Shown here: positions 6,738 through 30,996 of the stretch, piece after piece | Position numbering within the stretch: position 1 is the first letter of the stretch | Layout: each line of letters begins with the position of its first letter | From: Phycisphaerales bacterium | GTDB taxonomy: Bacteria > Planctomycetota > Phycisphaerae > Phycisphaerales > UBA1924 | DNA: 64,000 bases | Assembly: GCA_027083355.1 (NCBI GenBank) | Contig: JALWOY010000066.1 | Location: 1 to 64,000, forward strand | Direction: 5' to 3' | Notes under the pieces: generated by a model | What the model was told of the DNA's origin: nothing | Database searches by the model: none | The model's input: the letters and a program-made list of their open reading frames with translations, nothing else | Made by a program: the position numbers and the translations under genes

Positions 6738-6740
6738 GCA

Positions 6741-7478: not shown

Positions 7479-7481
7479 TTC

Positions 7482-10383: not shown

Positions 10384-10420
10384 ACCGGGCCCCGGGATAA
10401 ACCGGAGCGTATCAACCGGA

Positions 10421-10447
10421 ACACCGGGCGCGGGCCCGGTGTTTTTC
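10421..10447 (+). terminator. Rho-independent terminator
   Basis: A nine-pair stem ACACCGGGC / GCCCGGTGT with a four-base loop is followed by TTTTTC. It lies 38 bases after the stop of the EEP-domain gene. Confidence 0.85.
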
Positions 10448-10492
10448 TGGATCGACGGAATGGTGCAACGTGCATCATCATGTCCCGGCGAG

Positions 10493-10588
10493 TGCCACGG
10501 CTCTATTGAGCCGTGCCTTCGGCACACTCACGACACACAGCGATTTCACACAACCAGGCTGGCCGTGCCAGACAGAACAGGATTTCAA
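10493..10588. repeat. Family D repeat (copy D1) in the 10384-10785 gap
   Basis: This 402-base gap holds the terminator and then a repeat with an internal hairpin (CACGGCTC, five bases, GAGCCGTG) and the string GGCCGTGCCAGACAGAACAG. A related string in opposite orientation occurs at 62905-62960. I see no gene or RNA in the rest of the gap. Confidence 0.55.
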
Positions 10589-10785
10589 AATCCGCATCTC
10601 GTTCCGCGCCCGGGGTTCCGGGTGAGAAAGAGGCGGGAGATCGGGACGCCGGAGGCGATTCGATCCGACGCTTCGGAGGCTCAGCGTCGGCGTCTGTCCG
10701 ATTGAAGAGCAGGGCAGGTTGTGCCGCGGCCCCGAGACGGATTGTTTGCGGGGATGCACACGGCACGACGATGCGCGGCGGTTGA

Positions 10786-11988
10786 TCAGAGCGGGTCGGT
10801 GTCTGTGGGTTTGCCGCAGATATTGATTGCCGAGGCGATGTCCTTGAGCCCGCTCCCGGTGACGACGGCGACGGCGTCGGCGTCCGGTTCGATGATCCCC
10901 GCCGAGACGGCGCGACGGATGCCGGCGATGGAGGCCGCGGCGGCGGGTTCCGCGAACACACCGGCGAGCGAGCCGGCGGCGCGCATGGCCTCGGCGATCT
11001 CGTCGTCCGAGACCCGGACGAAGACACCATTCGTTTCGCGGACGCGCTGGACCGCCTTGCGCCAGTTCCGGGGCACGGCGACATTGATGCTGTCGGCGAA
11101 TGTGTCGGCGTCGGGGGCGACCTCGGGTGTGCCCGTTTCGAAGGCGCGGGCGACGGGGTCGACACGCTCGGCCTGAACCCCGAGCAGGCGGGGGACACGG
11201 TCGATGAACCCGAGGGCGTGCATCTCGATCAGGCCCTTGGCGATCCCGGCGGCGGTGCACCCGTCGCCGACAGAGACCGCGACCCAGCCCGGGAGATCGC
11301 GCGCCGTCTGCTCGGCGATCTCGAGCCCGGCAGTTTTTTTGCCCTCGACGAGGTAGGGGTTGATGGCGCAGTTGCGGTTATACCACCCGTGCTGTCGGCA
11401 CAAGGCCGAGCAGAGCTCGTAGGCCTGTTCGTATGTGCCCCGGACCCTGCGGACGTCGGCGCCGAAGACGAGGAGCTGGGCGATCTTGGGCTCGGGCGCC
11501 CGCGCGGGGACGAAGATCGTGGCGGGGATGCCCGCGATGGCGGCGAAGCCGGCGAGGCTCGACGCGGCGTTTCCCGTCGACGCACAGGCGACGCGCCGGG
11601 CGTTGTGCGAGAGGGCGTGCAGGACGCCGACGCTGGAGGCGCGGTCCTTGAAGCACGCGGTGGGATTGCGGGTGTCGTCCTTGATGCGGAGCCGCGACAG
11701 ACCGGCCCAACGGGCGAGGCGGGGCGTGTCGAGGATCGGCGTGAACCCGACGGGCCAGGCGTCCGCGGCAGGGCCGGGCTCGACGGGGAGCAATTCGCGA
11801 TATCGCCAGTGGTTCAGCGGGCGGGCGGCGAGCGCGGCGGGCGTCATGGACCGGGCGGCGGCGTCCATGTCGTAGTTGATTTCGAGGACGGCGGAGGGGT
11901 CGTTGCAGTGTGGGCAGACGCCGGCGGATTCCGGGGCGGGTGCCTCGGCGCCGCACTTGACGCAGATGAGGGAGGTCACGAGGGTCAT
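10786..11988 (-). CDS. thrC: Threonine synthase-like PLP-dependent lyase
   Basis: PLP fold-type II enzyme of 400 residues. A four-cysteine zinc-ribbon-like N terminus (Cys9, Cys12, Cys25, Cys28) precedes the catalytic domain, as in the longer bacterial and archaeal threonine synthases. The PLP lysine is Lys114 in CFKDRASS. The phosphate-binding region is ASTGNAASSLAG, and a glycine-rich motif SVGDGCTAAG follows near residue 240. Threonine synthase converts O-phosphohomoserine to threonine. The start codon overlaps the adenine deaminase stop in ATGA, so this is the last gene of the nucleobase-catabolism operon. That context raises the possibility of another beta-replacement or elimination substrate; sequence motifs alone favour threonine synthase. 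Confidence 0.8.
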   Translation of the reverse strand: MTLVTSLICVKCGAEAPAPESAGVCPHCNDPSAVLEINYDMDAAARSMTPAALAARPLNHWRYRELLPVEPGPAADAWPVGFTPILDTPRLARWAGLSRLRIKDDTRNPTACFKDRASSVGVLHALSHNARRVACASTGNAASSLAGFAAIAGIPATIFVPARAPEPKIAQLLVFGADVRRVRGTYEQAYELCSALCRQHGWYNRNCAINPYLVEGKKTAGLEIAEQTARDLPGWVAVSVGDGCTAAGIAKGLIEMHALGFIDRVPRLLGVQAERVDPVARAFETGTPEVAPDADTFADSINVAVPRNWRKAVQRVRETNGVFVRVSDDEIAEAMRAAGSLAGVFAEPAAAASIAGIRRAVSAGIIEPDADAVAVVTGSGLKDIASAINICGKPTDTDPL

Positions 11989-13745
11989 GCGTCGGCACCG
12001 ATCTGGAGGGGGACGACGGACTGCGATTCGACATGGACGAGGCCGAGGTCGGTGAGTTTGAGCGAGGGGATGACGGGGAGCGGGAGGAAGCTGAGGGGCA
12101 TGAACGGATCGGCGAGGGGGCAGCCGATGTCGTGGGCGGCTTGCAGAAGGTCGTGCTGCTGTTTGATGACGGTGGGGGCGTCCCGGTCGGAGAGGAGCCC
12201 GGCGATGGGCAGGGGGAGCAGCGCGAGGATCTCGCCGTCACGCGCGACGCACTGGCCCCCGCCGGCTTGTTCGAGCGCTCGAGCCGCGGCGAGCATGTCG
12301 TCGTCGTCGGCCCCCACGACGGCGAGGTTGTGGGCGTCGTGACCCACGGTGCTGGCAAGGGCCCCGCGGGCGAACGCGAAGCCCGTGACGAACCCGAGAC
12401 CGATGTTGTGGTTGATGCCGTGGCGGGCGATGACGGCGAGCTTGAGGATGTCGCGATCGGGGTCGGGGATGATGGTGTTGTTCTCGATCTTCGGGTCTTC
12501 GAGGCGTTCGCCGGTGACGAGTTGCGTGGGGTCGGCGACGATGACGCGGACTTTGCCGCCGCGGGGGGCGGCCTCGATACGGAAGGAATCGGCGGAGAGG
12601 TTTTCGGGGAGGTGGACGGTCGGGCGTCGGGCCTCGGGGTCGCCGCCCGGGCCGGCGGGCTCCGGGGGCTCGAGGATCTCGCCGTTCTCGGCGACGAGTG
12701 AGCCGCGGAAATAGACACGGCGCGGGCGGATGTCGGCGAGGTCGTCGAAGACGATCATGTCCGCGAAGCGTCCGGGCGCGACCGCGCCGATGTCGGGCCT
12801 GCGGTAGTGGTCCGCGGTGTGGATCGTTGCCATGGCCAGGGCGGTGACGGGGTCGAGCCCGAGTCGGACGGCTTTGCGGACGGCGTGGTCGATGTGTCCC
12901 TCGTTGTGCAGGTCGCCGGGGTGGCGGTCGTCGGTGCAGAAGCAGAAACGGTGCGCGTTCCGCTCGTTGACGGCGGGGAGAAGCGCCTCGATATTCTGCG
13001 CGGCGCTGCCCTCGCGGAGATAGACGCGCATGCCGAGGCGTGTCTTTTCGAGCGCTTCTTCGGGGGTGGTGCACTCGTGGTCGCTCGAGATCCCGGCGGC
13101 GGCGTAGGCGTTGAGGGGCCTCCCGGTAAGCCCGGGGCAGTGACCGTCGACGATGGCGCGTTCGAGCCCGAGGCGGACCTTGTCGAGAACGGCGGGATCG
13201 GCGAGGTAAACGCCGGGGAAGTTCATCATCTCGGCGAGCGCGACAACGCGGGGGTCGCCGAAGAACGGTTCGAGATCGTCGGCTTCGAGTCGGGCGCCGG
13301 CGGTCTCGAGCGCGGACGAGGGAACGCACGAGGAGACGGCGAACATGATGTCCATGGGGAGCCCGGCGGACTCGTCCATGAGGAAGCGGATGCCCAGGAC
13401 GCCGAGGACGTTGGCGATCTCGTGGGGGTCGAAAACGACGCCGGTGGTGCCGTGGGGGGCGGCGACGCGGACGAACTCGCGCGGCAGGAGCATGGTGGAT
13501 TCGACGTGCATGTGGGCGTCGATGAGGCCCGGGGCGATGTAGGCGCCGGCGAGGTCGAGCGTTTCTCTCGCGTCGAGGGGTTCGCCGACGCACGCGATGC
13601 GGCCCGCGTAGACGGAAACGGCGGCGTGAACGATCTCGCGCGTGAAGACGTTGACGACGCGGGCGTTGGTGATGGTGAGGTCGGCGGGTTTGTCACCCCG
13701 GGCGACGGCGAGGAGATCCGGGTCGGTCCGTTCTGCGATATTCAC
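11985..13745 (-). CDS. ade: Adenine deaminase
   Basis: Amidohydrolase-superfamily enzyme of 586 residues that converts adenine to hypoxanthine and ammonia. The GTG start at 13745 is preceded by GGAGG; the open frame runs further upstream, but only as antisense-like Arg/Pro-rich sequence. The first metal-binding motif is GLIDAHMHVESTM, followed by APHGTTGVVFDPHEIANV. HEGHIDHAVRKAVRLG and the C-terminal FVTGFAFARGALASTVGHDAHN match the Ade family, including the duplicated C-terminal domain. It overlaps the FAD subunit gene (GTGA) upstream and thrC (ATGA) downstream. It would feed hypoxanthine to the adjacent molybdenum hydroxylase, which could oxidise it towards urate. Confidence 0.93.
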   Translation of the reverse strand: MNIAERTDPDLLAVARGDKPADLTITNARVVNVFTREIVHAAVSVYAGRIACVGEPLDARETLDLAGAYIAPGLIDAHMHVESTMLLPREFVRVAAPHGTTGVVFDPHEIANVLGVLGIRFLMDESAGLPMDIMFAVSSCVPSSALETAGARLEADDLEPFFGDPRVVALAEMMNFPGVYLADPAVLDKVRLGLERAIVDGHCPGLTGRPLNAYAAAGISSDHECTTPEEALEKTRLGMRVYLREGSAAQNIEALLPAVNERNAHRFCFCTDDRHPGDLHNEGHIDHAVRKAVRLGLDPVTALAMATIHTADHYRRPDIGAVAPGRFADMIVFDDLADIRPRRVYFRGSLVAENGEILEPPEPAGPGGDPEARRPTVHLPENLSADSFRIEAAPRGGKVRVIVADPTQLVTGERLEDPKIENNTIIPDPDRDILKLAVIARHGINHNIGLGFVTGFAFARGALASTVGHDAHNLAVVGADDDDMLAAARALEQAGGGQCVARDGEILALLPLPIAGLLSDRDAPTVIKQQHDLLQAAHDIGCPLADPFMPLSFLPLPVIPSLKLTDLGLVHVESQSVVPLQIGADA

Positions 13746-14599
13746 GGGGCGTTCCTCCCGCTGGTCGTTCCGATGAACGGGCACACCGGGGCGAGCTCGT
13801 GAAAGAGCACACGGGCGAGGACGTTCATGCGGTAGGCGGCGGTGGATCGGATGTCGTCGATCGGGGCGAGGTCTTGTTCGAGGAGGGGGATGAGCGCATC
13901 GGGGGAAGCGATGGAGATGCCCCGGTCGAGGGCGTCTTCGAGGGCGCGGCATCGGCGGACGGTGGGGGCCATGCTGTTGGCGACGACACGCCACCCGGCG
14001 TCGGAGTGCGTGACCGCGGCGCCGACCTTGGTGATCGCCTGCGCGTTGCGCGTGCCGACCTTGATGAAGGATGAAAAGTCGCAGCGCCGGCGCGGGACGT
14101 GTATGGCGGTGATGATCCACCCCGGCTGCATGTTCAACTGTTTGTAGCCCAGATAAAAAGCGTCGAGCGGGACGCGGGCGGTGTCGTTCTCGCCGGCGGT
14201 CTCGACTTCGGCGTCGAGCGCCATGAGCGCGGGGACGCCGTCGGCGGCGGGTGAGGCGTTGGCGATGTTGCCGGCCCATGTCCCCCGCGTCTGGATCTGG
14301 ACGGCGCCGACGGTTCGGGCGGCTCGGGGGAGAATGGGGAGCTCGTCGTTCGCACGCGGATCGGTGATGATGTCCCAATATGTGGTGAGTGCGCCGAGGA
14401 CCAGTTCGTCTTCGGTCCAGCGGTGGCCCCGCAGGGCATCGATGCGGGAAAGATCAACGAAGGGGCCGGCGTGCGAGGTGCGTTGATCGGGCCAGTGGAC
14501 GAGGAGGTCGGTGGCGCCGGCGATCGGCCTCGCGTCCGGCGACCCGTCCTTGAGCATGCGGAGCGCTTCGGGGATCGAGTTGGGCGTCAGGATCTTCAC
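13742..14599 (-). CDS. Xanthine dehydrogenase-type FAD-binding subunit
   Basis: Medium subunit of a molybdenum hydroxylase, 285 residues from the GTG at 14599. It carries the FAD-binding pattern ARPIAGATDLLVHW (PIAGGTDL in relatives) near residue 25, and the second FAD motif TVGAVQIQTRGTWAGNIANA near 95-115, which matches the consensus IRNxGTxGGN with substitutions. It passes electrons from the 2Fe-2S subunit to NAD or another acceptor. It overlaps the small subunit by four bases and the adenine deaminase start by four bases, so the subunits are probably made in a coupled way. Confidence 0.9.
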   Translation of the reverse strand: MKILTPNSIPEALRMLKDGSPDARPIAGATDLLVHWPDQRTSHAGPFVDLSRIDALRGHRWTEDELVLGALTTYWDIITDPRANDELPILPRAARTVGAVQIQTRGTWAGNIANASPAADGVPALMALDAEVETAGENDTARVPLDAFYLGYKQLNMQPGWIITAIHVPRRRCDFSSFIKVGTRNAQAITKVGAAVTHSDAGWRVVANSMAPTVRRCRALEDALDRGISIASPDALIPLLEQDLAPIDDIRSTAAYRMNVLARVLFHELAPVCPFIGTTSGRNAP

Positions 14600-15096
14600 G
14601 CCCGTTCTCCGTTGTCGTGGGTGTCCGGGTTTTCTGCGTCGATGGCGGCGGCGAGGCCCTCGACGATGCCGTCGTAGCCGGTGCACCGGCAGAGGTTGCC
14701 GGCCATGAGCTCACGGATCGAGTGGGTGCGGAGGAGGTGCGGATTTTCGCGGACCCAGTGCGAGGAGATCACGACGCCGGGGGTGCAGGCGCCGCACTGG
14801 GTGGCGCCCGATTCGAGCATGTGCCCGAGGCGATCGGGGGCGATGGATTCGATGGTTTCGACGCTCCGGCCCGCCGCCTGCACAGCCGGGACGAGGCATG
14901 CGTTGACGGGGAGCCCGTCGAGGAGGACGGTGCAGGCGCCGCATTCGCCCTCGCCGCAGCCTTCTTTGGTCCCGGTCAGGCCGAGGCGGAGCCGAAGGGT
15001 GTCGAGCAGCCGCTCGTCGGTGTCGACGGAGACGCGGGTGGATTCCCCGTTGACGACGAGATGGATCTCGGTGCTGTGTGTCTCAGGCGCGCGCAT
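14596..15096 (-). CDS. Xanthine dehydrogenase-type 2Fe-2S subunit
   Basis: Small electron-transfer subunit of 166 residues. The plant-type 2Fe-2S cluster is bound by Cys47, Cys52, Cys55 and Cys67 (EGCGEGECGACTV followed by NAC). The second, helical-domain cluster uses CGAC in ATQCGACTPG and CRC in GNLCRCTGY. The length matches XdhC/CoxS-type subunits. Its ATG lies 14 bases inside the end of the large-subunit gene. Confidence 0.95.
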   Translation of the reverse strand: MRAPETHSTEIHLVVNGESTRVSVDTDERLLDTLRLRLGLTGTKEGCGEGECGACTVLLDGLPVNACLVPAVQAAGRSVETIESIAPDRLGHMLESGATQCGACTPGVVISSHWVRENPHLLRTHSIRELMAGNLCRCTGYDGIVEGLAAAIDAENPDTHDNGERA

Positions 15097-17287
15097 GGGT
15101 CATCAGCTCCATCAGCCGTTCGGGTGTCAGGGGGATGGTGTCGGGCTCGACGCCGAGCGCGTCGGCGACGGCGTTCGCGATAGCGGGCGCGGGCCCGTCC
15201 ATGGGGAGTTCGCCGATGCCCTTGGCGCCCCGGGCGCCGTGGGGGTACGGGTTTTCAAGGAAGTGGACGCCGATCGGGGGGACGTCGGCGGCAGTAGGGA
15301 TGATGTAGTTGGTGAGCTGGGCATTGGCCATCGCGCCGTCGCGCCAGACGCATTCTTCGAGCAGCGCCCACCCGATGGCCTGAACGACGCCGCCGGCGAT
15401 CTGACCCCTCGCGAGTGTTTCGTTGAGGACCTTGCCGATTTCCTGGACGGTCTGGAACCCGAGAACGCGGGTCTGGAAGGTCCGAAGGTCGACCTCGACG
15501 CGGGCGGCGTACGCGGCCCACGCGAAAGTGCCGTAGGCGTCGCCCCGGTAAGTCTCGTCGTCCCAATGGATGCCCGGCGGTTGCCGGTATTGTGCCCGGC
15601 CCACAGGCTCTCGGTCCGGGTGGGTCCGGTACCAGTTGTCGATGGCGTCGGTGACGGCGCCGCCCCTGGCGACGGGGTCGAGGCCGAGGGTTCTTCGCAG
15701 ATCGTCGCACGCGTCCTCGACGAGCTTCCCGACCACCATCGCGGTGCGGGAGGCGACGGTGGGACCGCTGTTGGGGACGCGCGCGGTGTCCGCGTCGGCG
15801 ATGGTCACGCGGGAACGATCCAGACCGAGACGGTCGGCGGCGATGTCGGTAAAGATCGTGAGCATCCCCTGGCCGATCTCGGTCGTGGCCGTACGCACCT
15901 CGACGCGCCCATCGGGCAGCGCCGCGACGTGCAGGCGCGAGGCGAGGTGGACCTCGCCGCTCCCGGTGAACCCGCCGCCGTGGTAGATGCAGGCGATACC
16001 CGTGCCCCTGCGGAGGTAGGGATGCGAAGCGTTGAACGCCCTGTCCTCCTGTTGATTCTTCTCGGCGTCGGCGAGGCGGATAGCGGTGTCGAGCACGGCG
16101 ACGCGGTCGGTGCCGTCGTTGATGGTCTGTGATGTAGAGGTGGTCTGCCCGTCGCGGATGAGGTTCCGCCGTCGGAGCTCCGCGGGGTCGATCCCCAGCG
16201 TGCGTGCGATGCGGTCCATGTGGCGTTCGCCGGCGAACTGCGACTGCGGCGCGCCGAAGCCGCGGAAGGCACCGAAGGGAACGGCGTTGGTGAACACGGC
16301 CCGTCCGACGATGCTGACGTTGTCACAGGCATACGGACCGCCGGCGTGGATGATGCCCCGGCTGAGAACGACAGGAGACAGCGTGACGTAGGCGCCCCCG
16401 TCGATGGTCATCTCGATCTGCTGGGCGAGGAGCCGGCCGTCGGAGTCGACACCGGTACGGTGCCGGACGAGCGCGGGGTGTCGCTTGGTGGTGCAGGCCA
16501 TGTCCTCCGCGCGGTCGTAGATGATCTTGACGGGCCTGCCCGCCTTGAGCGCCAGCAGGGCGGCGTGCAGGGCGATGACCGAGGGGAAGTCTTCCTTGCC
16601 GCCGAACCCGCCGCCCGTGGGGGCCTGCACGACGCGGACGTGCTTCTCATCGCGGGCGAGAGCGTGCGTGAGGGCGTTGAGGACGTAGTAGGGGCACTGC
16701 ATGGACCCCTTCACGACGATGGTGCCGTCCTCCTCCCACGCGGCCATGCCCTGGGTTTCCAGATAGACGTGCTCCTGCGCTCCCGTTTCGTAGACGCCCT
16801 CGATGATGTGGGGGGCGTCGCGGAGGGCGCGTTCGGCGTCGCCCTTCGTGATGGTGAGGTGGCTCAGGACGTTGTCCGGCCCATGCTGGATCTGCTCCGG
16901 GGCCGGCGGGACGCGGAAGTCGAGCGCCGCGGGCTCGGGGTCGACGATGATCTCGATCTCCCGGATCGCCCGTCGGCACATCGCACGCGAGGGATGCGCG
17001 ATCAGCACGACAGGCTCGTGGACATGCCGGACGTACTCGGAGGCGAGGACCGGCTGATCCAGCTCGATGAGCCGGACCTGGTTGGGGCCGGGGATGTCGC
17101 GGTGATCGACGACGACGAACTCGGACCAGTCGACGCCCGGGCCGAAACGGATCTCGCGGATCGTGCCTCTGGGCACGGGGCTGCGTTTCGTCATGCCCCA
17201 CCAGCACCCGGGGATGTCGAGGTCGTCGATATACCGCTCGCGACCGGCGAGTTTGTCGATACCCTCGATGCGTGTTGACGCTGCCAT
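15083..17287 (-). CDS. Xanthine dehydrogenase-type molybdopterin subunit
   Basis: Large catalytic subunit of 734 residues. The start was placed at the ATG with a strong GGAGGG six bases upstream; a longer frame adds only 12 residues. It contains the aldehyde oxidase/xanthine dehydrogenase a/b hammerhead at the N terminus, the molybdopterin-binding signature GGGFGGKED, then GAFRGFGAPQ and TTEIGQGM. The catalytic glutamate candidate is in the C-terminal KGIGELPMDGPAPA. It is the first gene of a minus-strand operon (large, 2Fe-2S and FAD subunits, adenine deaminase, PLP enzyme). With adenine deaminase next door the likely substrate is hypoxanthine or xanthine, but related hydroxylases act on nicotinate, CO or aldehydes, so specificity is inferred from context. 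Confidence 0.9.
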   Translation of the reverse strand: MAASTRIEGIDKLAGRERYIDDLDIPGCWWGMTKRSPVPRGTIREIRFGPGVDWSEFVVVDHRDIPGPNQVRLIELDQPVLASEYVRHVHEPVVLIAHPSRAMCRRAIREIEIIVDPEPAALDFRVPPAPEQIQHGPDNVLSHLTITKGDAERALRDAPHIIEGVYETGAQEHVYLETQGMAAWEEDGTIVVKGSMQCPYYVLNALTHALARDEKHVRVVQAPTGGGFGGKEDFPSVIALHAALLALKAGRPVKIIYDRAEDMACTTKRHPALVRHRTGVDSDGRLLAQQIEMTIDGGAYVTLSPVVLSRGIIHAGGPYACDNVSIVGRAVFTNAVPFGAFRGFGAPQSQFAGERHMDRIARTLGIDPAELRRRNLIRDGQTTSTSQTINDGTDRVAVLDTAIRLADAEKNQQEDRAFNASHPYLRRGTGIACIYHGGGFTGSGEVHLASRLHVAALPDGRVEVRTATTEIGQGMLTIFTDIAADRLGLDRSRVTIADADTARVPNSGPTVASRTAMVVGKLVEDACDDLRRTLGLDPVARGGAVTDAIDNWYRTHPDREPVGRAQYRQPPGIHWDDETYRGDAYGTFAWAAYAARVEVDLRTFQTRVLGFQTVQEIGKVLNETLARGQIAGGVVQAIGWALLEECVWRDGAMANAQLTNYIIPTAADVPPIGVHFLENPYPHGARGAKGIGELPMDGPAPAIANAVADALGVEPDTIPLTPERLMELMTHARA

Positions 17288-17383
17288 CGGCCCTCCGTAA
17301 ATCGGCGTCGGACCCGACAGCATACCACAGCGAGGCGGGATTTCGTCGGCCGGCGGCGGGGGAGTGCCCGCTGACGTGGGGTG

Positions 17384-18265
17384 TCAGCCGATCCCGTCGG
17401 GATCGGCGATGTGGGTGTAGCTTTCAGGTCGGCGATCGCGGTAGAACTGCCAGACGTTGCGGACCTCCTCGATCATGTCCAGATCAAGATCGGCGACCAC
17501 GACCTCCTCCTTGTCCCGAGATGCCTGCTCGATGATCTGGCCCCGCGGGTCGCAGAAATAACTCTGCCCGTAGAACTCGCCGATGTCCCACGGCTTTTCG
17601 TGGCCGACGCGGTTGATCGCGCCGACGAAATACTGGTTCGCGACGGCGTGCGCGGGCTGTTCCAGTTTCCAGAGGTATTCGCTCAGCCCGGCGACGGTGG
17701 CGGACGGATTGAAGACGATCTCGGCGCCGCCCAGGCCCAGCTCGCGGGCGCCCTCGGGGAAGTGCCGGTCATAACAGATATAGACGCCGATGCGCCCGAA
17801 CCGGGTCTGGAACACCGGGTACCCCAGATCCCCCGGCGTGAAGTAGAACTTCTCCCAGAACCCCGGATGGCAGTGGGGGATGTGGTGCTTGCGGTATTTG
17901 CCGAGGTACTCGCCGGTCTCGTCGATGACCGCGGCGGTGTTGTAATACACGCCCGTCATGGCACGCTCGTAGATCGGCACGACGAGGACCATTTTGTGTT
18001 TCCTGGCGAGGTCCTGCATGAGCTTCGTCGTCGGGCCGTCGGGGATCGGCTCGGCGGTCTGGTACCACTTCGTGTCCTGCTCGGCGCAGAAATACGGACC
18101 GCTGAAGATCTCCTGGAGGCAGCAGACCCGGGCGCCGCGGTCCGCGGCCTCGGCGATCATCGGCAGATGCTTCTCGATCATCGCCTGCTTGAGATCCTTC
18201 AGATCGACACCCTCGGCGCTCGGGCTCGAGGCCTGGATAATCGCGGCTCGTGTGACGCGTGCCAT
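17384..18265 (-). CDS. Carbon-nitrogen hydrolase, beta-ureidopropionase / N-carbamoylputrescine amidase type
   Basis: Nitrilase-superfamily amidase of 293 residues. The catalytic triad is visible as Glu52 (CLQEIF), Lys126 (KYRKHHIP) and Cys164 (YICYDRHFPEG). The IPHCHPGFWEKFYFTPGD stretch is typical of enzymes that split N-carbamoyl groups from beta-alanine or putrescine. In this position, next to a methylmalonate/malonate-semialdehyde dehydrogenase and a purine-degrading operon, release of beta-alanine from N-carbamoyl-beta-alanine in reductive pyrimidine breakdown is attractive. No dihydropyrimidinase or dihydropyrimidine dehydrogenase lies in the window, so the choice of substrate stays open. 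Confidence 0.88.
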   Translation of the reverse strand: MARVTRAAIIQASSPSAEGVDLKDLKQAMIEKHLPMIAEAADRGARVCCLQEIFSGPYFCAEQDTKWYQTAEPIPDGPTTKLMQDLARKHKMVLVVPIYERAMTGVYYNTAAVIDETGEYLGKYRKHHIPHCHPGFWEKFYFTPGDLGYPVFQTRFGRIGVYICYDRHFPEGARELGLGGAEIVFNPSATVAGLSEYLWKLEQPAHAVANQYFVGAINRVGHEKPWDIGEFYGQSYFCDPRGQIIEQASRDKEEVVVADLDLDMIEEVRNVWQFYRDRRPESYTHIADPDGIG

Positions 18266-18278
18266 CGTTGACCTTTCA

Positions 18279-18354
18279 GAAAGAGCCCGGAGCGTAAGCG
18301 ACGGGCCGGAAGTTCAGGATGTTCGCCCCCTCGCTCTCGCTCGGGGCTCTTTTC
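18279..18354. repeat. Family A palindromic repeat (copy A3)
   Basis: The left end AAAGAGCCCGGAGCGTAAGC and the right end TCGCTCTCGCTCGGGGCTCTT are imperfect inverted complements around a short centre. It occupies most of the gap between the amidase and the semialdehyde dehydrogenase genes, where it could fold as a hairpin in RNA. Confidence 0.75.
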
Positions 18355-18384
18355 CGATGGGTACGAAGAACGACTCCCTGCTTC

Positions 18385-19872
18385 TCACAACCATCGGCTC
18401 ACAAGGATCTTGTGCTCGGTGAAGAAACGCAGCGCGTCCTCACCGTTGGCGTGCAGATCGCCGAAGAACGAGTTCTTCCAGCCCGCGAAGGGGAAGACCG
18501 CCATCGGCGCGGGCACACCCACGTTGATGCCGATCATCCCCGCCTTCGCCTGCACTTTGAACCGCCGGGCGTTGTACCCGCTCGACGTGAAGATCACGCC
18601 CATATTCCCGTACTCGGTCGCGTTGATCGCGGCGATCGCGTCGTCCAGCGTCCCGGCGCGGTAGATCGACAGCACGGGCCCGAAGATCTCCTCGCGGCAC
18701 AGACGCATCGCCGGCGTCACCTTGTCGAACACGCTCGGGGCCACGAAGCAGCCGCCCCCCGGCACGCCCGCCTCGCGACCGTCGAGCAGCAGCTCGGCCC
18801 CCTCGTCGAGGCCGATCTGGATGTACTTGTTGACGCGGTCGCAACCGGCGCTGTCGATCAGCGGGCCCATGCCCACCGCCGGGTCGTCGCCCCGCGCCAC
18901 GGTGATCTTCTTCGCCGCCTCGACGATCGCCGGCACGAACCACTCCGCCGCTTCGCCCACCGGCGCCGCCACCGAGCCCGCAAGGCAGCGCTGACCTGTG
19001 TTGCCGAACGCGGAGCCGAGCACGCCCTCGATCGCGGCCTCGCGGTTGGCGTCCGGCATGATGACCATGAAGTTTTTCGCGCCGCCCATGCACTGGGCGC
19101 GTTTGCCGGCGCCGCACGCGGTCGAGTAGATGTGCCGCGCGACACGCGTCGACCCGACGAACGACACCGCCCGCACGTCGTCGTGCGTGATCAGGCGATC
19201 CACGACGGGCGCCCCACCCGTGACGACATTGATCACACCCGGCGGAAAACCGGCCTCGTGCGCCAACTCCACCTCGCGCAGGGCGCTCAGCGGCACCTTC
19301 TCCGAAGGCTTGAGCACGAACGTGTTGCCGCAAGCAACAGCCATCGGCCACATCCACATCGGCACCATGACCGGGAAGTTGAACGGTGTGACCCCCACGC
19401 ACACACCCAGCGGAACCCGCTCCGACGTGCTGTCGATCCCGATCCCGCCCTCGTCCTCGCTCCGGCAGAACGAGCTCGAGACCGCGATCTGCGGCAGCGT
19501 GTTGCCCATCATCAGCACGGGCGCCGCGCAGGCATACTCGACACAGTCGATCCCTCGGCGCACGTCCCCGCGGGCCTCGCCCATGGTCTTGCCGTGCTCG
19601 GAGACGATCAGCGAGGCGAGTTCCTCGAAATGGTCCTCGAGCACCTGCTTGTAGCGGAACAGACACTGCACACGCTCCCCGACCGGCGTGTCGGCCCACG
19701 ACGGGTAAGCGGCCGATGCAGCGGCGACCGCCCTGTCGGCGGCGTCCGTCGCGTCCAGACGCACCCGACCGAGCACGTCACCGTTCGCGGGGTTCAGCAC
19801 GTCGATCACGTCGCCATCGCCCGACTCGGGGATGCGTTGACCGGCGATCAGGTGTCCGACCAGTTCCGACAT
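18385..19872 (-). CDS. mmsA: Methylmalonate/malonate-semialdehyde dehydrogenase (CoA-acylating)
   Basis: Aldehyde dehydrogenase of 495 residues. The ATG at 19872 is preceded by GGAGG; an in-frame upstream start is possible but adds Arg-rich junk. The catalytic cysteine is Cys296 in FGNTGQRCLAG. The motif QCMGGAKNFMV replaces the usual ELGGK motif and its glutamate, which is the hallmark of the CoA-dependent methylmalonate-semialdehyde class. PFNFPVMVPMWM also fits. The enzyme turns methylmalonate or malonate semialdehyde into propionyl- or acetyl-CoA, in valine, inositol or beta-alanine catabolism. Following the ureidopropionase-like gene, it may finish pyrimidine-derived beta-alanine breakdown. 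Confidence 0.93.
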   Translation of the reverse strand: MSELVGHLIAGQRIPESGDGDVIDVLNPANGDVLGRVRLDATDAADRAVAAASAAYPSWADTPVGERVQCLFRYKQVLEDHFEELASLIVSEHGKTMGEARGDVRRGIDCVEYACAAPVLMMGNTLPQIAVSSSFCRSEDEGGIGIDSTSERVPLGVCVGVTPFNFPVMVPMWMWPMAVACGNTFVLKPSEKVPLSALREVELAHEAGFPPGVINVVTGGAPVVDRLITHDDVRAVSFVGSTRVARHIYSTACGAGKRAQCMGGAKNFMVIMPDANREAAIEGVLGSAFGNTGQRCLAGSVAAPVGEAAEWFVPAIVEAAKKITVARGDDPAVGMGPLIDSAGCDRVNKYIQIGLDEGAELLLDGREAGVPGGGCFVAPSVFDKVTPAMRLCREEIFGPVLSIYRAGTLDDAIAAINATEYGNMGVIFTSSGYNARRFKVQAKAGMIGINVGVPAPMAVFPFAGWKNSFFGDLHANGEDALRFFTEHKILVSRWL

Positions 19873-19924
19873 GTGCGGCCTCCGATTTCTCGCCGAAAAC
19901 CCGGCGTGCAATCCGGATTCTATG

Positions 19925-20410
19925 TCACGGGTGAGTCGGCGGCGGCGACGCGGATGCCGGGGGGGTGTCCTGGCTTGCACAAAGGCCGAGCGTCACGCCC
20001 TCGGGCTGATACCGCCCACCCGAGAAACCCAGATCGGTCAGCATCGGCGTGCGCACATACAGCAACGCGCCCGCCTCCCCCCGGGAAATCTCCACCGTTG
20101 CGTGCACGAACCCGTCCGCGTCGATGTGCATCATCGACCGCGACGGGTCGACCTCCAAGCGAACCGGCAGACCCGTCCGGCGACGCACGCGGCGACGTTC
20201 ACCGGACGAGACGGCAACGACGTCCCCGGTCCATGTATCGTCGCCGTTCGAATCCGCGCCGCGCGTCAGACACAACTCGATAGCCGAGGCGCCGTTCGAG
20301 GCGTCGGTTTGCGCCCCGAGCAGCCTCCGCGCCGTCGCAGGCTCGACAGACCACCGCACGGCGAAGCGTTCAACACGCACCGGCCCGGTTTCACCGCGTG
20401 GTGGGGTCAT
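19925..20410 (-). CDS. Hypothetical protein coupled to GbsR-type regulator
   Basis: The protein has 161 residues and no recognised family. The middle part alternates polar and hydrophobic residues, suggesting a beta-rich fold (VRLEVDPSRSMMHIDADGFV). The start codon overlaps the stop of the regulator gene by four bases (ATGA), so the two are co-translated. No signal peptide or membrane segment is visible. It may respond to or modify the activity of the regulator, but this rests only on position. Confidence 0.65.
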   Translation of the reverse strand: MTPPRGETGPVRVERFAVRWSVEPATARRLLGAQTDASNGASAIELCLTRGADSNGDDTWTGDVVAVSSGERRRVRRRTGLPVRLEVDPSRSMMHIDADGFVHATVEISRGEAGALLYVRTPMLTDLGFSGGRYQPEGVTLGLCASQDTPPASASPPPTHP

Positions 20411-22668: not shown

Positions 22669-23049
22669 TCACCCGTTGAGCCGGTTCACGATTTCGAGTA
22701 TTCGGAGTAGTGTTCTGCTCGGGACGTAGGCCTCGGTCGGCTCCAGATCGCTCGGTTGTACTTCAACGAGCCAGTTACACACCGCAACCGACCGACGCCG
22801 AAGCAGTGTCGCTGGGTGTCCATTGACTTGCCAGGGCAGTTCAACATGGGTATCGGGCAGGGGTTCTACGACAAGAGTACTCACTGCCACACCGACAACC
22901 GGGTTGTCCATAACGATCTCATCACTCGCAGTGATCACAACAATCGGGCGGCGCTTTATTTCACCGTTTGGACTTCGAACCGAAGCCCAAGGGATTGAGC
23001 CCTGTTGAATCGTCGGCCTGCGTCTGGGCATCGGTCTTCCGCTGGTCAC
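22669..23049 (-). CDS. MazF/PemK-like endoribonuclease toxin
   Basis: The protein has 126 residues. The pattern QQGSIPWASVRSPNGEIKRR followed by PIVVITA matches the start of MazF/PemK toxins (G-x-I-x-W followed by RP-x-V-V), and TLVVEPLPDTHVELPW matches the second strand region (TH-V-L). MazF toxins cut mRNA at short motifs. The GTG start overlaps the upstream gene in GTGA, the usual antitoxin-then-toxin order. The C-terminal half (LLRILEIVNRLNG) is also MazF-like. Base composition is visibly less GC-rich than the surroundings, suggesting transfer. Confidence 0.78.
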   Translation of the reverse strand: MTSGRPMPRRRPTIQQGSIPWASVRSPNGEIKRRPIVVITASDEIVMDNPVVGVAVSTLVVEPLPDTHVELPWQVNGHPATLLRRRSVAVCNWLVEVQPSDLEPTEAYVPSRTLLRILEIVNRLNG

Positions 23050-23273
23050 GGGGAAAACGGATCGATATCCTCATCGAACCAGGCAGGTTTGGGCTGGTTC
23101 TCCCGTTTCGCCGCCCAACGGCGAAGGTCGGCGCTCGCCGGTGTGCTGTCGGCTACCTTTTTTCTTATATCGAAGTTGATCGATTCACGTCGTTCTCTTG
23201 GTACCCAGCGGAACCAAATAACGCGTGCTCTGACCGGCTGGCCCGCCGGGATGTCCAGCTTTACTCGGCTCAC
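23046..23273 (-). CDS. Small protein, probable antitoxin of the MazF-like toxin
   Basis: The protein has 75 residues and no recognised family. Its place immediately before the toxin with a four-base overlap, and its size, fit an antitoxin. The N terminus (VKLDIPAGQPVRARVIWFRW) suggests beta strands; the C terminus (KPAWFDEDIDPFSP) is acidic, as is common in the toxin-binding tail of MazE-like proteins. The GTG start overlaps the end of the upstream gene, so three genes are translationally linked. Confidence 0.6.
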   Translation of the reverse strand: MSRVKLDIPAGQPVRARVIWFRWVPRERRESINFDIRKKVADSTPASADLRRWAAKRENQPKPAWFDEDIDPFSP

Positions 23274-25965: not shown

Positions 25966-26775
25966 TCACACGTTCCGCATGACCTTCACCGCCCGGTACA
26001 AACCCGCGATCTGCTCCCGGTCGTACACCCGCGGGGCGTAGCGGTTGTTGATCGGCTGAAGACGGATACGCTCGGCCGTCCCGTCGCGGTATTCGAAATA
26101 GACGCGTTTGAATGTCGTCTCGTCGTCGAGCGCGAGCCGGGCGAAGCAGTCGTCCCCGTCGGTGATGGGCCGCGCCGGGCTGAAGATCACGATGTCGCCC
26201 TCGCGGTAGTCCGGCTCCATCGAATCACCAACCACCCGCGCCGCGAACGCGTCCGGGTCGTGCAGATCCGGGCAGCGCACGTATTCGTCCGCCACGCGCG
26301 CGGGGTAGCCCATGTCCGTGAACCCCTGCGGGTAGCCGGCCGAAACCTTGTTGATCAGCGGCACCTCGAACGGCAGATCGACCGGGGTGGGCCCGGCCGG
26401 GTCGAGCCGTTCGATGAGCGCCCGGAGTTCGCCGCTGCGGAAGGCCAGATCGAGCCCGGTCCGCCCGCCCTCCCCGGAGGCGAGTTTCGTGACAAGCCGG
26501 CGCAGCTCGGCGGAACGGGAGAGGTCCCGGAGGACCGGATCGGGGACACGGTCCCAGGCGCCGGCGCGGACGAGCCGCCCGTCCTCGATGTGCAGCGCCG
26601 ATTCGATCCGGGCGAGCATGTCCTGGCTCGGGGCCTTGGTGCCGTGCTCGATCGCCCAGAGGTAGCTCTTGGCGCAGCCGCAACGGTCGGCGAGTTCGCG
26701 CAGCGAGAGCCCCGCCGCTTGTCGATGCTCGCGGATGATCCCGCCGAGCGCCGCCTGTTCAGGTGACATATCCAC
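25966..26775 (-). CDS. CI/LexA-like repressor: XRE helix-turn-helix plus S24 peptidase domain
   Basis: The protein has 269 residues. Residues 10-65 are an XRE helix-turn-helix (LSLRELADRCGCAKSYLWAI then EHGTKAPS). Residues 130-265 are an S24-type self-cleavage domain with Ser185 in VVGDSMEPDY and Lys223 in TFKRVYFE; a possible Ala-Gly cleavage site is at 146-147. This architecture is that of phage CI repressors and related stress-sensing repressors that are cut when RecA is activated. It is divergent from the HTH/ABC/terminase genes across a 264-base region with a palindrome at 26987, so it probably represses them and itself. The start is the GTG at 26775; an ATG six bases later is equally possible. 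Confidence 0.9.
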   Translation of the reverse strand: MDMSPEQAALGGIIREHRQAAGLSLRELADRCGCAKSYLWAIEHGTKAPSQDMLARIESALHIEDGRLVRAGAWDRVPDPVLRDLSRSAELRRLVTKLASGEGGRTGLDLAFRSGELRALIERLDPAGPTPVDLPFEVPLINKVSAGYPQGFTDMGYPARVADEYVRCPDLHDPDAFAARVVGDSMEPDYREGDIVIFSPARPITDGDDCFARLALDDETTFKRVYFEYRDGTAERIRLQPINNRYAPRVYDREQIAGLYRAVKVMRNV

Positions 26776-26986
26776 CCCCGTTTCCCACAGAATCGGCCCC
26801 CCGGCACCGTGCCGACGCGGATCGAACCGGTCCGTCGACCGGGCCTATCCCCCGCAGACCGGGGATTCCGCTTGCGACGGTTCCTCCCCCGTCTGGACGG
26901 GATTTGTGCCGGATGTCGCGTGATGTGCGCTGAATCGTGTCACTTCCGTACAAAAGCCTTGCGTGTCGTTCTCCGATGAGTAGAAC

Positions 26987-26997
26987 ATACGTCGTAT
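26987..26997. promoter_or_regulatory. Candidate operator palindrome in the divergent region
   Basis: ATACGTCGTAT is a perfect 5-1-5 palindrome, extended outward by GAAC on the left and GTTC on the right with one extra base. It lies between the divergent repressor and the HTH gene, about 50 bases before the latter's ATG. Such a site is what a dimeric CI-like repressor would bind; this is inference. Confidence 0.45.
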
Positions 26998-27039
26998 CGT
27001 TCACTGAATAGTGTCCACACAAATAAGGAGATTCAAGAC

Positions 27040-27750
27040 ATGAACACACAAATCTGTGACTCGAAGGGCAAAGCCCCCACTTCGGGGCGTCTCCCCGTGG
27101 ACGGTGCGGAGGTTGGGGGTCGGCAAAAGGCACGGCGGCTCGATCAAACTTCAAACGCAACACAGTATAATACCGATCAAAACGAACACAAGCCGATTCC
27201 CCAGCCTGTCGTGGTCAGGCCCGACCGCGTACCCGCCCGTACCAGACCGCGAAGGCGATCAGCCGCGTTCTCGGCGGACTCTCCCGATCTCCGTCGACGT
27301 GCCCGCCGGGAGTACGCCGAGATGCTCGTCGATCACGCCGCGTGGCTGACGCCCGAAGACCGTGAACTGGTGACGTCGGTATTCGGGGAGGGGCTGAGCG
27401 TCGCGGCGTATGCGCGTCGTCGGCGTGAGAAGGAGTCACCCATTCCCGTCCGCACCGCCCGCAGGCGGCTCCGGAAGATCGTCGCCCGGCTGCTCTCGCC
27501 GCGGTTCGTGTTCGTCATCGAGAACCGCAAGGCATGGCCCGCGACGCGCCGGCGGGCGGCGATGGCATGCGTCGTACAGGGACTCTCGCTCCGGGAGGCC
27601 GCCGCGAAGATCGGGGTGAGCCTCCACGCGGTCCGGCGGCACATGGACGCCGTCGAGGCACTCTACCTCGCCTCGGTCGGGCAGGCCGGCAAGACCGCCA
27701 AACAAACGGGCGATCGAGACGGTGAACGGGCCGCGGGGGACTGGCGATGA
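27040..27750 (+). CDS. Helix-turn-helix DNA-binding protein heading the terminase island
   Basis: The protein has 236 residues. The first 70 are Arg/Pro-rich and likely disordered. Residues about 85-150 and 165-215 each resemble sigma-70 region 4 or small-terminase-like helix-turn-helix units (LTPEDRELVTSVFGEGLSVA; GLSLREAAAKIGVSLHAVRR). The start has AAGGAG nine bases upstream. The stop overlaps the ABC-acetyltransferase start in ATGA. It could act as a transcription activator, or as a DNA-recognising small terminase subunit for the large subunit encoded downstream; neither is proven. Confidence 0.72.
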   Translation: MNTQICDSKGKAPTSGRLPVDGAEVGGRQKARRLDQTSNATQYNTDQNEHKPIPQPVVVRPDRVPARTRPRRRSAAFSADSPDLRRRARREYAEMLVDHAAWLTPEDRELVTSVFGEGLSVAAYARRRREKESPIPVRTARRRLRKIVARLLSPRFVFVIENRKAWPATRRRAAMACVVQGLSLREAAAKIGVSLHAVRRHMDAVEALYLASVGQAGKTAKQTGDRDGERAAGDWR

Positions 27751-29075
27751 ACTCGCGGGTGTTGCGGGCGGTGGCGCCGTTCGGCGTCGCGCCGGACGAT
27801 CTGATGCTCGCGGCGGATGATGACGCCGAAGCTGACGCGTGCCGGCTCCTCGACGCGCTCGGCGAAGCGCACAGCCCGGGGCGGGTGGCACTGATCACGG
27901 GACCGAGCGGGTCGGGCAAGTCGCGGCTGCTGTCGGCGGTGCGGGAACGTCTCGGGGCGTCCGGTGCGAATTTCGCCGACACGGCGCGATGCCGTCCCGA
28001 TCCGGGGCGTGCGTTGGCGGGGCATCGAGCATCCGTGCCCGTCGAGGCGTGGTTGGGGCTGCTCTCGATGGCGGGGCTGGCCGACGCCCGGCTGCTGCCC
28101 GTCCCCGCGGGGAGGCTGTCGGAGGGCGAGCGTGCCCGCCTCCGGCTCGCCCTCGCGATGTCCAGCGTGCGTGCGGGCGGGTTCCTGCTGATCGATGAGT
28201 GCTGCTCGACGCTCGACCGGTGCACGGCCGCCGGCGTCGCCGCGACGATCCGCCGGTGGGCGACGCGATCGGGGGTGTGTGTCATCGCGGCCGGGGCACA
28301 CGAAGACCTCCCCCGCCTGCTCGGGCCGGATCTGGTCGTGCGGTGCGAGCCGGGCGTGCCGAGGCGGTTCGAGCGGGGGCCGGGGGTGGCCCGCGCCGGA
28401 CGGATCCGGGTCGAGGGTGGGACGGCGGCGGACTATGCGGCGTTGGCCCGGTATCACTACCGACCCGGCCGGCCCGCATCGCCGAGCCGGATTCTGCGGG
28501 CCGTGGCGCCCGGGGGTCGGCTCGCCGGTGTGCTGGTGGTGTGTCACCCAACGCTGAACGGCTCGTGGCGCGGGCTGATCTGGCCCGGCCGGTACACCGG
28601 GGCCTGCAAACGGGCGATCGCCCGCCGGCTCAACCGCGAACTGCGGCGGATCAGCCGGGTGATCGTCGACCCTCGCGACCGGGGGCGAGGCATCGCTCGC
28701 CGGCTCGTGCGCGCGTATCTGGATGACCCCCTCACCCCCGCGACCGAGGCGGTCGCCGCGATGGGCCGGCTCTCGCCGTTCGGGGCGTCGGCGGGGATGA
28801 CGGCATATCCCGTGCCGCCCCGGCCCGCGGACGACCGGCTGGCGGACATGCTCGACGCGGCGGGGGTCGAGCCGTGGGAGATGCTCGACCCGGCGCGGGT
28901 CGAACAGATGCGCGGCGACGGGCTGATCCGGCGGGAACTGGGGGTGTGGGCGAGAACGGTGTTTGCATCGATCCCCAAGCCGCGGCGGGCGTGGGCGGAC
29001 GTGTTCGACCTCGCCCCGCTGGCGGCGGCAAGGCTGTGCGCACCACCCGTGGCCTATGGGTGTGTGGCGGAGTGA
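27747..29075 (+). CDS. ABC-type ATPase fused to a predicted GNAT acetyltransferase
   Basis: The protein has 442 residues. The ATPase half (about 1-215) has Walker A GPSGSGKS, an ABC signature-like LSEGERARLRLALA, Walker B GGFLLIDECCSTLD and an H-loop-like AAGAHEDL. The second half (about 225-400) resembles GNAT acyltransferases: ADYAALARYHYRPG, strands around GVLVVCHP, and the CoA-binding-like VDPRDRGRGIARRLV. This layout matches the family described as an ABC-type ATPase fused to a predicted acetyltransferase domain (COG2401), best known from archaea. No membrane part exists, so it is not a transporter. In a phage-like island beside a terminase it might modify DNA, as the GNAT-fold Mom protein of phage Mu does, or modify proteins. 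The target is unknown. Confidence 0.82.
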   Translation: MNSRVLRAVAPFGVAPDDLMLAADDDAEADACRLLDALGEAHSPGRVALITGPSGSGKSRLLSAVRERLGASGANFADTARCRPDPGRALAGHRASVPVEAWLGLLSMAGLADARLLPVPAGRLSEGERARLRLALAMSSVRAGGFLLIDECCSTLDRCTAAGVAATIRRWATRSGVCVIAAGAHEDLPRLLGPDLVVRCEPGVPRRFERGPGVARAGRIRVEGGTAADYAALARYHYRPGRPASPSRILRAVAPGGRLAGVLVVCHPTLNGSWRGLIWPGRYTGACKRAIARRLNRELRRISRVIVDPRDRGRGIARRLVRAYLDDPLTPATEAVAAMGRLSPFGASAGMTAYPVPPRPADDRLADMLDAAGVEPWEMLDPARVEQMRGDGLIRRELGVWARTVFASIPKPRRAWADVFDLAPLAAARLCAPPVAYGCVAE

Positions 29076-29082
29076 TGAAGAG

Positions 29083-29157
29083 CAGCAAAGCAACAAATCG
29101 GGAAAGCAGCAAAGCGGATGGGTGCCGGTGGTGTTCGTCTGATGTGTTGCTTTGCTG
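29083..29157. repeat. 13-bp perfect inverted repeat between island genes
   Basis: CAGCAAAGCAACA at 29083-29095 is matched by its exact complement TGTTGCTTTGCTG at 29145-29157, separated by 49 bases that repeat the left arm imperfectly (CAGCAAAGC near 29107). It lies in the 127-base gap after the ABC-acetyltransferase gene and could form an RNA hairpin or be a protein-binding or recombination site. Confidence 0.6.
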
Positions 29158-29202
29158 ATTTTCCGCTCTGCTGTTTTCAATCCCCCCCGCGGGAGTCGAG
29201 AG

Positions 29203-29418
29203 ATGACGAAAAAACAACCGCGTGTGCCGCGACCGGCGCCGCCGCCCGAGCCGGGGGAGTTGCCCCGGACGCTGACGTTCGCGCTGACGGCCGACGAACG
29301 GGCGGCGGTGCTGCGTGTGCTGCGGCGGTACGACTCGGACCGTGCCCTGGCGCTGCGGATGGCGCTGGGGATCGCGGAACAACAGACCGGCAAATCGGCA
29401 AAGCCGCGAACCGGTTGA
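29203..29418 (+). CDS. Small protein before terminase
   Basis: The protein has 71 residues. After a Pro/Arg-rich lead of about 25 residues comes a helical stretch LTADERAAVLRVLRRYDSDR then ALALRMALGIAEQ, reminiscent of small helical regulators or a minimal ribbon/helix DNA-binding unit. No family is assigned. It lies 25 to 64 bases before the terminase, depending on the terminase start, so they are probably in one operon. Confidence 0.6.
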   Translation: MTKKQPRVPRPAPPPEPGELPRTLTFALTADERAAVLRVLRRYDSDRALALRMALGIAEQQTGKSAKPRTG

Positions 29419-29442
29419 GAACGGGATGCGCATGTTAACTTT

Positions 29443-30996
29443 TTGTTGCCGGTTTCACGTCCCCCCAACGGGGCAAGACCTTTGAACGAATCGAGAGATG
29501 TTGACAGCGGGATCGGTCCGAGGCCGACGACTCCCGGGGCGCTGCACGCCTGGCTGTCGGAGTATCTGGATCTGCGTGTGCCGACGCGTCCACTGCTCGA
29601 CGGGCACGACGCGCCGTTCGATTATCTGTGCCATGCGTTCTTTGATACATCCCGGCCGGTCGGGGGCGAGGGCGGCGCGGGGCTTTCAACGCCGAGCGAC
29701 GCGGTGGTCTGGGCGAACCGGGGCGGGGGCAAGACGTTTCTGGGTGCGGTGGCCACGCTGCTGGATCTGGTGTTCAAGCCCACGATCGAGGTGCGGATTC
29801 TCGCCGGATCGCTCGACCAGGCGAGGCGGATGCACGCCCACCTGCGCACGCTCTTCGAGGGCTCGGAACTCTTCCGCGAGGTCGAGGGGCGGATCACCGA
29901 GAAGCGGCTGCGCCTCCGCAACGGGTCGAACGTCGAGCTGCTCGCCCAGAGCCAGACGTCGGTCCGCGGGACGCGCGTGCAGAAACTGCGTTGTGACGAG
30001 GTCGAGCTGTTCGACCCGGACGTGTGGGAGGCCGCCCAGCTCACGACGATGAGCAAGCAATGCGGCGACGTGTGGGTGCCCGGGACGATCGAGTGTCTCA
30101 GCACGATGCACATGCCCTACGGGCTGATGTACCGCCTGGTGCGGGAAGCGGGCGAGGGCGCCCGCCGGCTGTTCAAGTGGGGCGTGGTGGACGTGCTGGG
30201 CCCGTGCGGCCCGGCGCATGAATGCGAGACGTGCACGCTCAAAGACGACTGCGGCGGGCGGGCCAAGCGGCGTGACGCCGAAGGCGAGACACCCGGGCAC
30301 CTGCCGGTGCTCGACGCGGTCCGCCTCAAGTCCCGCGTGGGCGAGGGGACATGGCAGGCCGAGATGCTGTGCACCAGACCCCGGCGTGACGATTGCGTGC
30401 TGCCGGAGTTCGACCGCGATCGGCACGTGATCGACGCGGGGCCGGCGGCGGGGGATCAACGCTGGATCGGCGGGATGGATTTCGGCATCCGTGCGCCCAC
30501 GGTCATCCTGTGGGCGTCGGTCGACGGGGCGGGCGTGGTGCGTGTGTTCGGCGAGCGCGTGGTCGCTGGCGAGATCGTGACCCGGCACGCCGAGGCGATC
30601 GTGTCGGGCGGCTCGGGCCCGTTGTCGCCGCTGCCGGTGCCGGAGTGGATCGGCGTCGACCCGGCTGGGCGTCAGCGGAGCGAGCAGACCGGGGTGAGCG
30701 CGGTGGAGGTTCTGCGGAAGGCGGGGCTCGTCGTGCGGGATCGGCGGATGGGGCTGAACGCGGGGCTGTCGCTGATCCGCGCGCGTCTTCGGCCGGCGAG
30801 CGGTCCGCCGACGCTGCTGGTGCATTCGTCGTGCGAGCGTCTGATCGAATCGCTCCAGCGGTACCGTTACCCGCCGGACCAGCCGGAGAGCCTGACGCCG
30901 CTGAAGGACGGGTCGGACCACGCGGTCGACGCGCTGCGGTACATGATCCAGAACCTCGACGCGGGGTACACGACGAGACACGGCCGGTATGTGTAA
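29443..30996 (+). CDS. Phage-type terminase large subunit
   Basis: The protein has up to 517 residues. The ATPase motor has Walker A WANRGGGKTFLG (near residue 92) and Walker B KLRCDEVELFD (near 185). The nuclease domain shows acidic residues in GGMDFGIRAPTVI, WIGVDPAG and DGSDHAVDALRYM, the last being the characteristic end of TerL nucleases. A cysteine cluster CGPAHECETCTLKDDCGG in the middle may bind zinc. TerL packages phage DNA into capsids. No ATG exists near the N terminus; the start is a TTG at 29443 or 29482. No portal, capsid or tail gene follows, since the next gene is on the opposite strand and unrelated. Confidence 0.88.
   Translation: MLPVSRPPNGARPLNESRDVDSGIGPRPTTPGALHAWLSEYLDLRVPTRPLLDGHDAPFDYLCHAFFDTSRPVGGEGGAGLSTPSDAVVWANRGGGKTFLGAVATLLDLVFKPTIEVRILAGSLDQARRMHAHLRTLFEGSELFREVEGRITEKRLRLRNGSNVELLAQSQTSVRGTRVQKLRCDEVELFDPDVWEAAQLTTMSKQCGDVWVPGTIECLSTMHMPYGLMYRLVREAGEGARRLFKWGVVDVLGPCGPAHECETCTLKDDCGGRAKRRDAEGETPGHLPVLDAVRLKSRVGEGTWQAEMLCTRPRRDDCVLPEFDRDRHVIDAGPAAGDQRWIGGMDFGIRAPTVILWASVDGAGVVRVFGERVVAGEIVTRHAEAIVSGGSGPLSPLPVPEWIGVDPAGRQRSEQTGVSAVEVLRKAGLVVRDRRMGLNAGLSLIRARLRPASGPPTLLVHSSCERLIESLQRYRYPPDQPESLTPLKDGSDHAVDALRYMIQNLDAGYTTRHGRYV

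Follow-up and report, generated by a model that had tools for sequence, protein, structure and literature searches.

The stretch analysed here (the window) comprises the first 64,000 nucleotides of contig JALWOY010000066.1 (contig C66 of the analysis) in a 3.4 Mb metagenome-assembled genome (MAG) of a Phycisphaerales bacterium (GCA_027083355.1). Between positions 25966 and 30996 it carries an island of five genes: a leftward S24-type repressor, and a rightward operon encoding a helix-turn-helix (HTH) protein, an ABC ATPase-GNAT fusion, a 71-aa protein and a large terminase subunit (TerL). This cassette is very probably an exapted (domesticated) phage DNA-packaging module. The best overall explanation, a domesticated cassette that most likely forms the packaging half of a process resembling that of gene transfer agents (GTAs), was given a probability of about 45%.

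Distribution and ancestral order of the cassette

TerL was encoded in 115 of 150 related genomes, including 85 of the 90 genomes from the window's own family (f1), usually at one locus per genome, and the ABC-GNAT in 110 of 150, mostly directly upstream of TerL. The five-gene composition proposed by the initial annotation was confirmed, and the gene order without capsid genes that it had suggested seeking in other planctomycete genomes was recovered. It had named a lack of co-occurrence elsewhere as a sign of decay; co-occurrence was class-wide. The five genes of the island are real rather than a product of chance, because dozens of genomes carry them in the same order, under purifying selection. 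The window's TerL was the sole full-length copy of its type in its genome, and the relatives in named records were almost all MAGs of Phycisphaerales or other Planctomycetota. In a TerL profile search across 392 genomes of the phylum, all ten genomes listed for the class's other orders (families f7, f8 and f9) had full-length TerL; the count is a reading of that listing, in which the negatives are sorted by kinship and none is of the 'same class'. Matches outside the class were all weak, at about 50-120 bits apart from a single one of 218, and the nuclease domain accounted for most of them.

Alignment of 33 loci was used to derive the ancestral order. The cassette S24 / HTH-ABC-GNAT-ParB-TerS-TerL, with a divergent repressor and TerS as putative small terminase subunit, was seen in families f4, f5, f6 and f7, and the same order was found in f3 on a short (partial) contig. 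One f9 locus (L217) held the full set without S24, with the host gene rpiB (ribose-5-phosphate isomerase B) inserted between TerS and TerL; inside the cassettes at L213, L215 and L216 as well, rpiB separated GNAT or TerS from TerL (families f8 and f9). ParB was missing from f8, and TerL was lost from f2 except in one genome (G115). In f1, ABC was fused to GNAT, ParB was cut to its C-terminal tail and TerS was lost except in G043. The window's island is a reduced form of a longer ancestral cassette. A local rearrangement was also observed in an f6 genome (G127; L087 3495-4661), where a GNAT-like open reading frame (ORF) stood upstream of the HTH gene and not after ABC.

Vertical inheritance and purifying selection

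The TerL and RpoB trees of 28 genomes were congruent. Each family was monophyletic in both, FastTree distances were strongly correlated (r=0.92; Mantel test, 0/2000) and 16 of 25 splits were shared, while TerL evolved about three times as fast as RpoB. Ratios of nonsynonymous to synonymous substitution rates (dN/dS) between close pairs were 0.09-0.11 for TerL, 0.10 for GNAT and TerS, 0.16 for ABC, 0.14-0.19 for HTH and 0.17 for S24, compared with 0.075 for RpiB and DnaA.

The cassette genes are not decaying remnants, because they combine congruence with RpoB, dN/dS of 0.09-0.19 and invariant ATPase and nuclease residues. A recent or decaying prophage remnant, or a phage satellite, lacking structural genes by happenstance could account for the single-gene losses in some lineages (the ParB domain, TerS, ABC-GNAT), but the three features just named, together with class-wide occurrence, host-like base composition and no integrase noticed in the window, largely refute it and leave it the least probable of the explanations considered. 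The satellite origin raised by the initial annotation was likewise disfavoured by the single copy, and no complete prophage, which it had named as refuting evidence if joined to the cluster, lies next to the island, which is flanked by host genes. Its alternative of a domesticated DNA-packaging system was upheld by vertical inheritance that is close to universal, by purifying selection and catalytic residues that are intact, by these host flanks and by the conserved gene order lacking capsid genes. Cassettes at other loci have host neighbours too, dnaA and rpiB among them. Endogenization, vertical inheritance and co-diversification with the host, which are among the GTA criteria of PMC9662315, were all displayed by the cassette.

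Cassette proteins

TerL combined a Walker A/B ATPase (RGGGKT, CDEVE) with an RNase H-type nuclease bearing conserved acidic residues, as do the large terminases of Caudoviricetes, and also carried a four-cysteine insert. The two ATPase motifs, D346, D406 and D492/D496 were invariant across aligned TerLs, as were the four cysteines, which some viral TerLs share. Solved terminase structures were matched at 3.8e-12. Single-sequence searches of IMG/VR with TerL and ABC-GNAT gave no match; a profile search of the same database recovered viral TerLs that were at closest 24-35% identical, and the cassette TerLs formed a separate clade. One of these viral relatives (L257) was followed by a portal of the SSU5 phage type. 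No ABC, GNAT or ParB cassette accompanied the IMG/VR relatives, save for one weak ABC match.

The ABC ATPase displayed the motifs GPSGSGKS, LSEGE and FLLIDE. ABC and GNAT were two separate genes in families other than f1. The GNAT fold was confirmed by the AlphaFold model of a homologue, whose top VIA-align match was Mom of phage Mu (Z 12.9, root-mean-square deviation 3.0, 139 aligned residues), a match tied with many other GNATs, including N-terminal acetyltransferases. The DNA-modification function suggested by the initial annotation extends at most to the ABC-GNAT part of the cassette, a candidate Mom-like DNA acyltransferase in which the GNAT fold stands and Mom ranks first but level with other GNATs.

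The 71-aa protein is a ParB remnant that lost the ParB domain and kept the C-terminal tail: a ParB profile built without f1 matched this tail at 7e-4 in the window, and its matches in sister genera reached 1e-8. It occupies the operon position of the ParB-like gene that is full length in other families. Small terminases join an HTH to a helical oligomerisation domain and are encoded upstream of TerL. For the putative TerS, sequence families gave no match; the best structural matches of its model were 2ao9 (Z 7.2) and the small terminases of Sf6, PaP3 and NV1, all with Z < 8. PADLOC and NCBIfam returned only generic matches and no name for TerL, the ParB tail, TerS or GNAT.

Repressor and candidate operator

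The repressor consists of an N-terminal HTH and a C-terminal S24 autoprotease with an Ala146-Gly147 cleavage site and a Ser185/Lys223 dyad; it was found throughout the order and in f7. The Ala-Gly site and the Ser/Lys dyad were invariant in 14 repressors. The control by DNA damage proposed by the initial annotation, through RecA-dependent cleavage, would follow by analogy with the LexA/CI family. Like these repressors, the cassette protein joins an HTH to an S24 domain with the same site and dyad; unlike them, it scored 35.1 bits where the LexA equivalog cut-off is 110.95, and in the eight genomes searched its candidate operator lay between genes nowhere but at the cassette.

The divergent S24/HTH promoter often contained the candidate operator consensus GTTCRC-N6-GYGAAC, of which the window holds a copy with two mismatches. 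Of 13 loci left out of its derivation, 9 had it between S24 and HTH with 0-2 mismatches, while on average about 3% of control windows of the same length held it within two mismatches.

Search for particle genes

Several observations weigh against the cassette being half of a particle-forming process. No particle gene lay beside any of the approximately 33 cassettes examined, and no partner particle genes were found among the several families searched. Neither the window's genome nor 55 of 61 genomes contained the HK97 capsid (PF05065). Profiles phrog_145 and phrog_212, the portal and capsid partners of the module in phages, gave no match in 22 cassette genomes, where controls were silent too. 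Five f9 loci had TerL without the other cassette genes; at three of these, in three genomes (L214, L218 and L219), the lone TerL lay divergent beside dnaA, a striking position for a terminase. Genus g37 (G038; L080 7928-10361) lost ABC-GNAT, keeping a shortened S24, an HTH remnant, an exact operator and TerL. Exact operator copies beyond the cassette, sought in eight genomes as a guide to further repressor-controlled genes, were all inside coding genes and about as numerous as in a reversed control, and this candidate regulon was rejected. Finally, contig C157 of the window's genome holds a head-tail cluster that was tried as the missing half and rejected as an unrelated, multi-copy, patchy prophage with a GpA-type terminase just upstream.

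The C157 cluster was found with a portal profile and was the only portal cluster followed in that genome. The prophage cluster (L111, G000:C157:5000-24999, 6697-20000) is complete and encodes a terminase, portal, capsid-protease fusion, cement, head-tail joining, tail tube and tape measure proteins. A ParB-methyltransferase fusion was observed upstream of it, and further portal copies at G000:C167 and G000:C14. The cassette might package DNA for such resident GpA-type prophages, as helper or saboteur, both being present in the window's genome; this is very improbable, as the prophages have their own GpA terminase, they are patchy (56 of 150 relatives, up to 10 copies per genome) against a near-universal single cassette, and many cassette genomes already lack such a prophage.

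No cluster of structural homologues emerged when 1.2 Mb (41%) of a single closed genome was searched, in a limited scan, with 271 ORFs from viral contigs. Recognisable particle genes are likely absent, and highly diverged ones may exist.

Comparison with known systems

One of the nearest counterparts was the packaging module of SSU5-type phages and phage-plasmids (Salmonella phage SSU5, Pseudomonas phage Nican01, Rhizobium phage RHph_X66 and Stenotrophomonas phage ANB28), ordered ParB-ParB-ABC-GNAT-TerS-TerL-portal in SSU5 and RHph_X66, with the capsid gene next. The cassette likewise holds ParB, ABC, GNAT, TerS and TerL genes together, in PHROG families phrog_293/11143, 886, 723-like and 2, and the full set occurs in f3 (partial contig), f4-f7 and one f9 locus. 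These phages carry two ParB genes at the head of the module, whereas ParB comes after GNAT in the cassette, which has TerL as its last gene, before any portal, with host genes following at the examined loci. It is also vertically inherited, governed by an S24 repressor at a divergent promoter and set apart by its TerL clade. PICI-like phage satellites, marked by an integrase and mobility, differ in turn from this single-copy, vertically inherited cassette; the PHROG families displayed for the window (25 of 38) include no integrase.

Gene transfer agents and tailocins are known examples of phage parts that became domesticated. GTAs are endogenized, in many cases at more than one locus, and diversify together with their hosts (PMC9662315). 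They derive their structural genes from caudoviricetes, and their particles deliver random host DNA to other cells. Like RcGTA, BaGTA and BhGTA (viriforms), the cassette has a phage-derived terminase fixed in the chromosome, host co-diversification and purifying selection; unlike them, it has a different TerL family, packaging genes apart from head and tail clusters and no particle genes found.

ABC-GNAT pairs (COG2401-like) are mentioned in PMC7824862 as a predicted DNA acyl-modification system. The cassette shares the pairing or fusion of ABC ATPase and GNAT, but embeds it in a terminase operon of a cellular lineage, and modification is only predicted. The same mention lends some weight to an anti-phage device, derepressed by infection or damage, whose terminase, TerS or acyl-transfer parts would disturb how incoming phages are packaged, or their DNA. 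Such a role would suit a set of parts derived from phages and controlled by a repressor of phage type, as well as the several GpA-type prophages of related genomes. It is nonetheless quite improbable, given near-universal, single-copy vertical inheritance where most defence systems are distributed patchily. TerL was matched by no PADLOC model, and the ABC matches in PADLOC were to a generic ATPase.

In the open-access literature on terminases and Planctomycetes, on GTAs and on ABC-GNAT/ParB/terminase sets, no comparable system was described, and no precedent was found there for a terminase operon kept class-wide without a particle.

Possible function

A phage packaging cassette very probably entered an ancestor of all Phycisphaerae and has since been transmitted as part of the chromosome. 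The S24 repressor would keep the divergent promoter closed and cleave itself once DNA damage activates RecA, and the HTH protein might activate or tune the operon. Where retained, ParB and TerS would choose the DNA, while ABC-GNAT could mark the DNA or the complex through acyl transfer. TerL would then cut host DNA and pump it into a container. The loss of ParB and TerS in f1 would fit packaging without sequence choice.

GTA-like use was placed first because the retained translocase suggests a portal-bearing container somewhere. The gene-transfer-like device of the initial annotation is kept as the leading mechanism, minus the particle genes, which were not found. That these genes lie at another locus, too diverged for recognition, is a tentative proposal, somewhat short of even odds. 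If true, it would represent a new GTA layout and a first clue to gene exchange in the poorly tractable Planctomycetota.

Alternatively, cells might use the TerL motor without any virus particle, as a damage-inducible, class-wide cutter and translocase of chromosomal DNA that processes, degrades or exports it, loaded or protected by ABC-GNAT and ParB. Such a motor may serve repair, DNA release or programmed degradation. The lack of particle genes beside the cassettes and in the scanned 41% of the closed genome (a limited search), the loss of TerS and ParB in one family, the lone TerL at some loci and its place beside dnaA in part of f9 all point this way. This use was placed second and is nevertheless unlikely: TerL motors normally need a portal for translocation, a packaging enzyme would be expected to keep its motor and nuclease motifs in full, and the particle-gene negatives come from incomplete searches. 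If true, a viral DNA motor working without a capsid would be categorically new. A planctomycete GTA may be nearly as novel if its packaging operon is set apart, both in location and in regulation, from a particle that escapes recognition.

Genomic context in the window

The features of the island are given in Table 1. The start of ABC-GNAT overlaps the stop of the HTH gene by four bases, and an AAGGAG-type ribosome site precedes the HTH gene. At third codon positions, the genes of the repressor, ABC-GNAT and TerL each had a GC content of 0.87, within the range of 0.85 to 0.93 of most host neighbours in the window, and the HTH gene had one of 0.75. Host genes for MarR, UbiA, ferredoxin and DUF6677 flank the island on one side, and those for an HTH_17 protein, an M42 peptidase and a DEAD helicase on the other.

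Table 1. Coordinates of cassette features in the window
Feature	Position	Strand	Remarks
S24 repressor (CI/LexA-like)	25966-26775	-	Peptidase_S24 6.9e-19 (Pfam), HTH 6.8e-12
Candidate operator GTTCACTGAATAGTGTCC	26999-27016		In gap between divergent genes, 23 bp upstream of HTH start codon
HTH protein, first gene of operon	27040-27750	+	Sigma-region-4-like C-terminal HTH (weak), phrog_11138 7.6e-10
ABC ATPase-GNAT fusion	27747-29075	+	phrog_11143 7.7e-12, phrog_886 3.7e-10
71-aa protein	29203-29418 (ATG 29203, within ORF 29152-29418)	+	C-terminal tail of ParB-like protein
TerL	29443-30996	+	phrog_2 4.9e-18; 517 aa from TTG, real start possibly further in

The 43 other ORFs of the window matched 38 PHROG families, and the 25 of these that were displayed included no head, tail or integrase family. 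Two neighbouring short ORFs of 126 and 75 aa lie on the minus strand at 22669-23273; the former, which had no Pfam match at 1e-3, resembles a MazF/PemK toxin, a guess from its sequence. The 43 ORFs beyond the cassette also encode an N6/N4 DNA methylase and the A and B subunit domains of topoisomerase VI, an enzyme unusual in bacteria.

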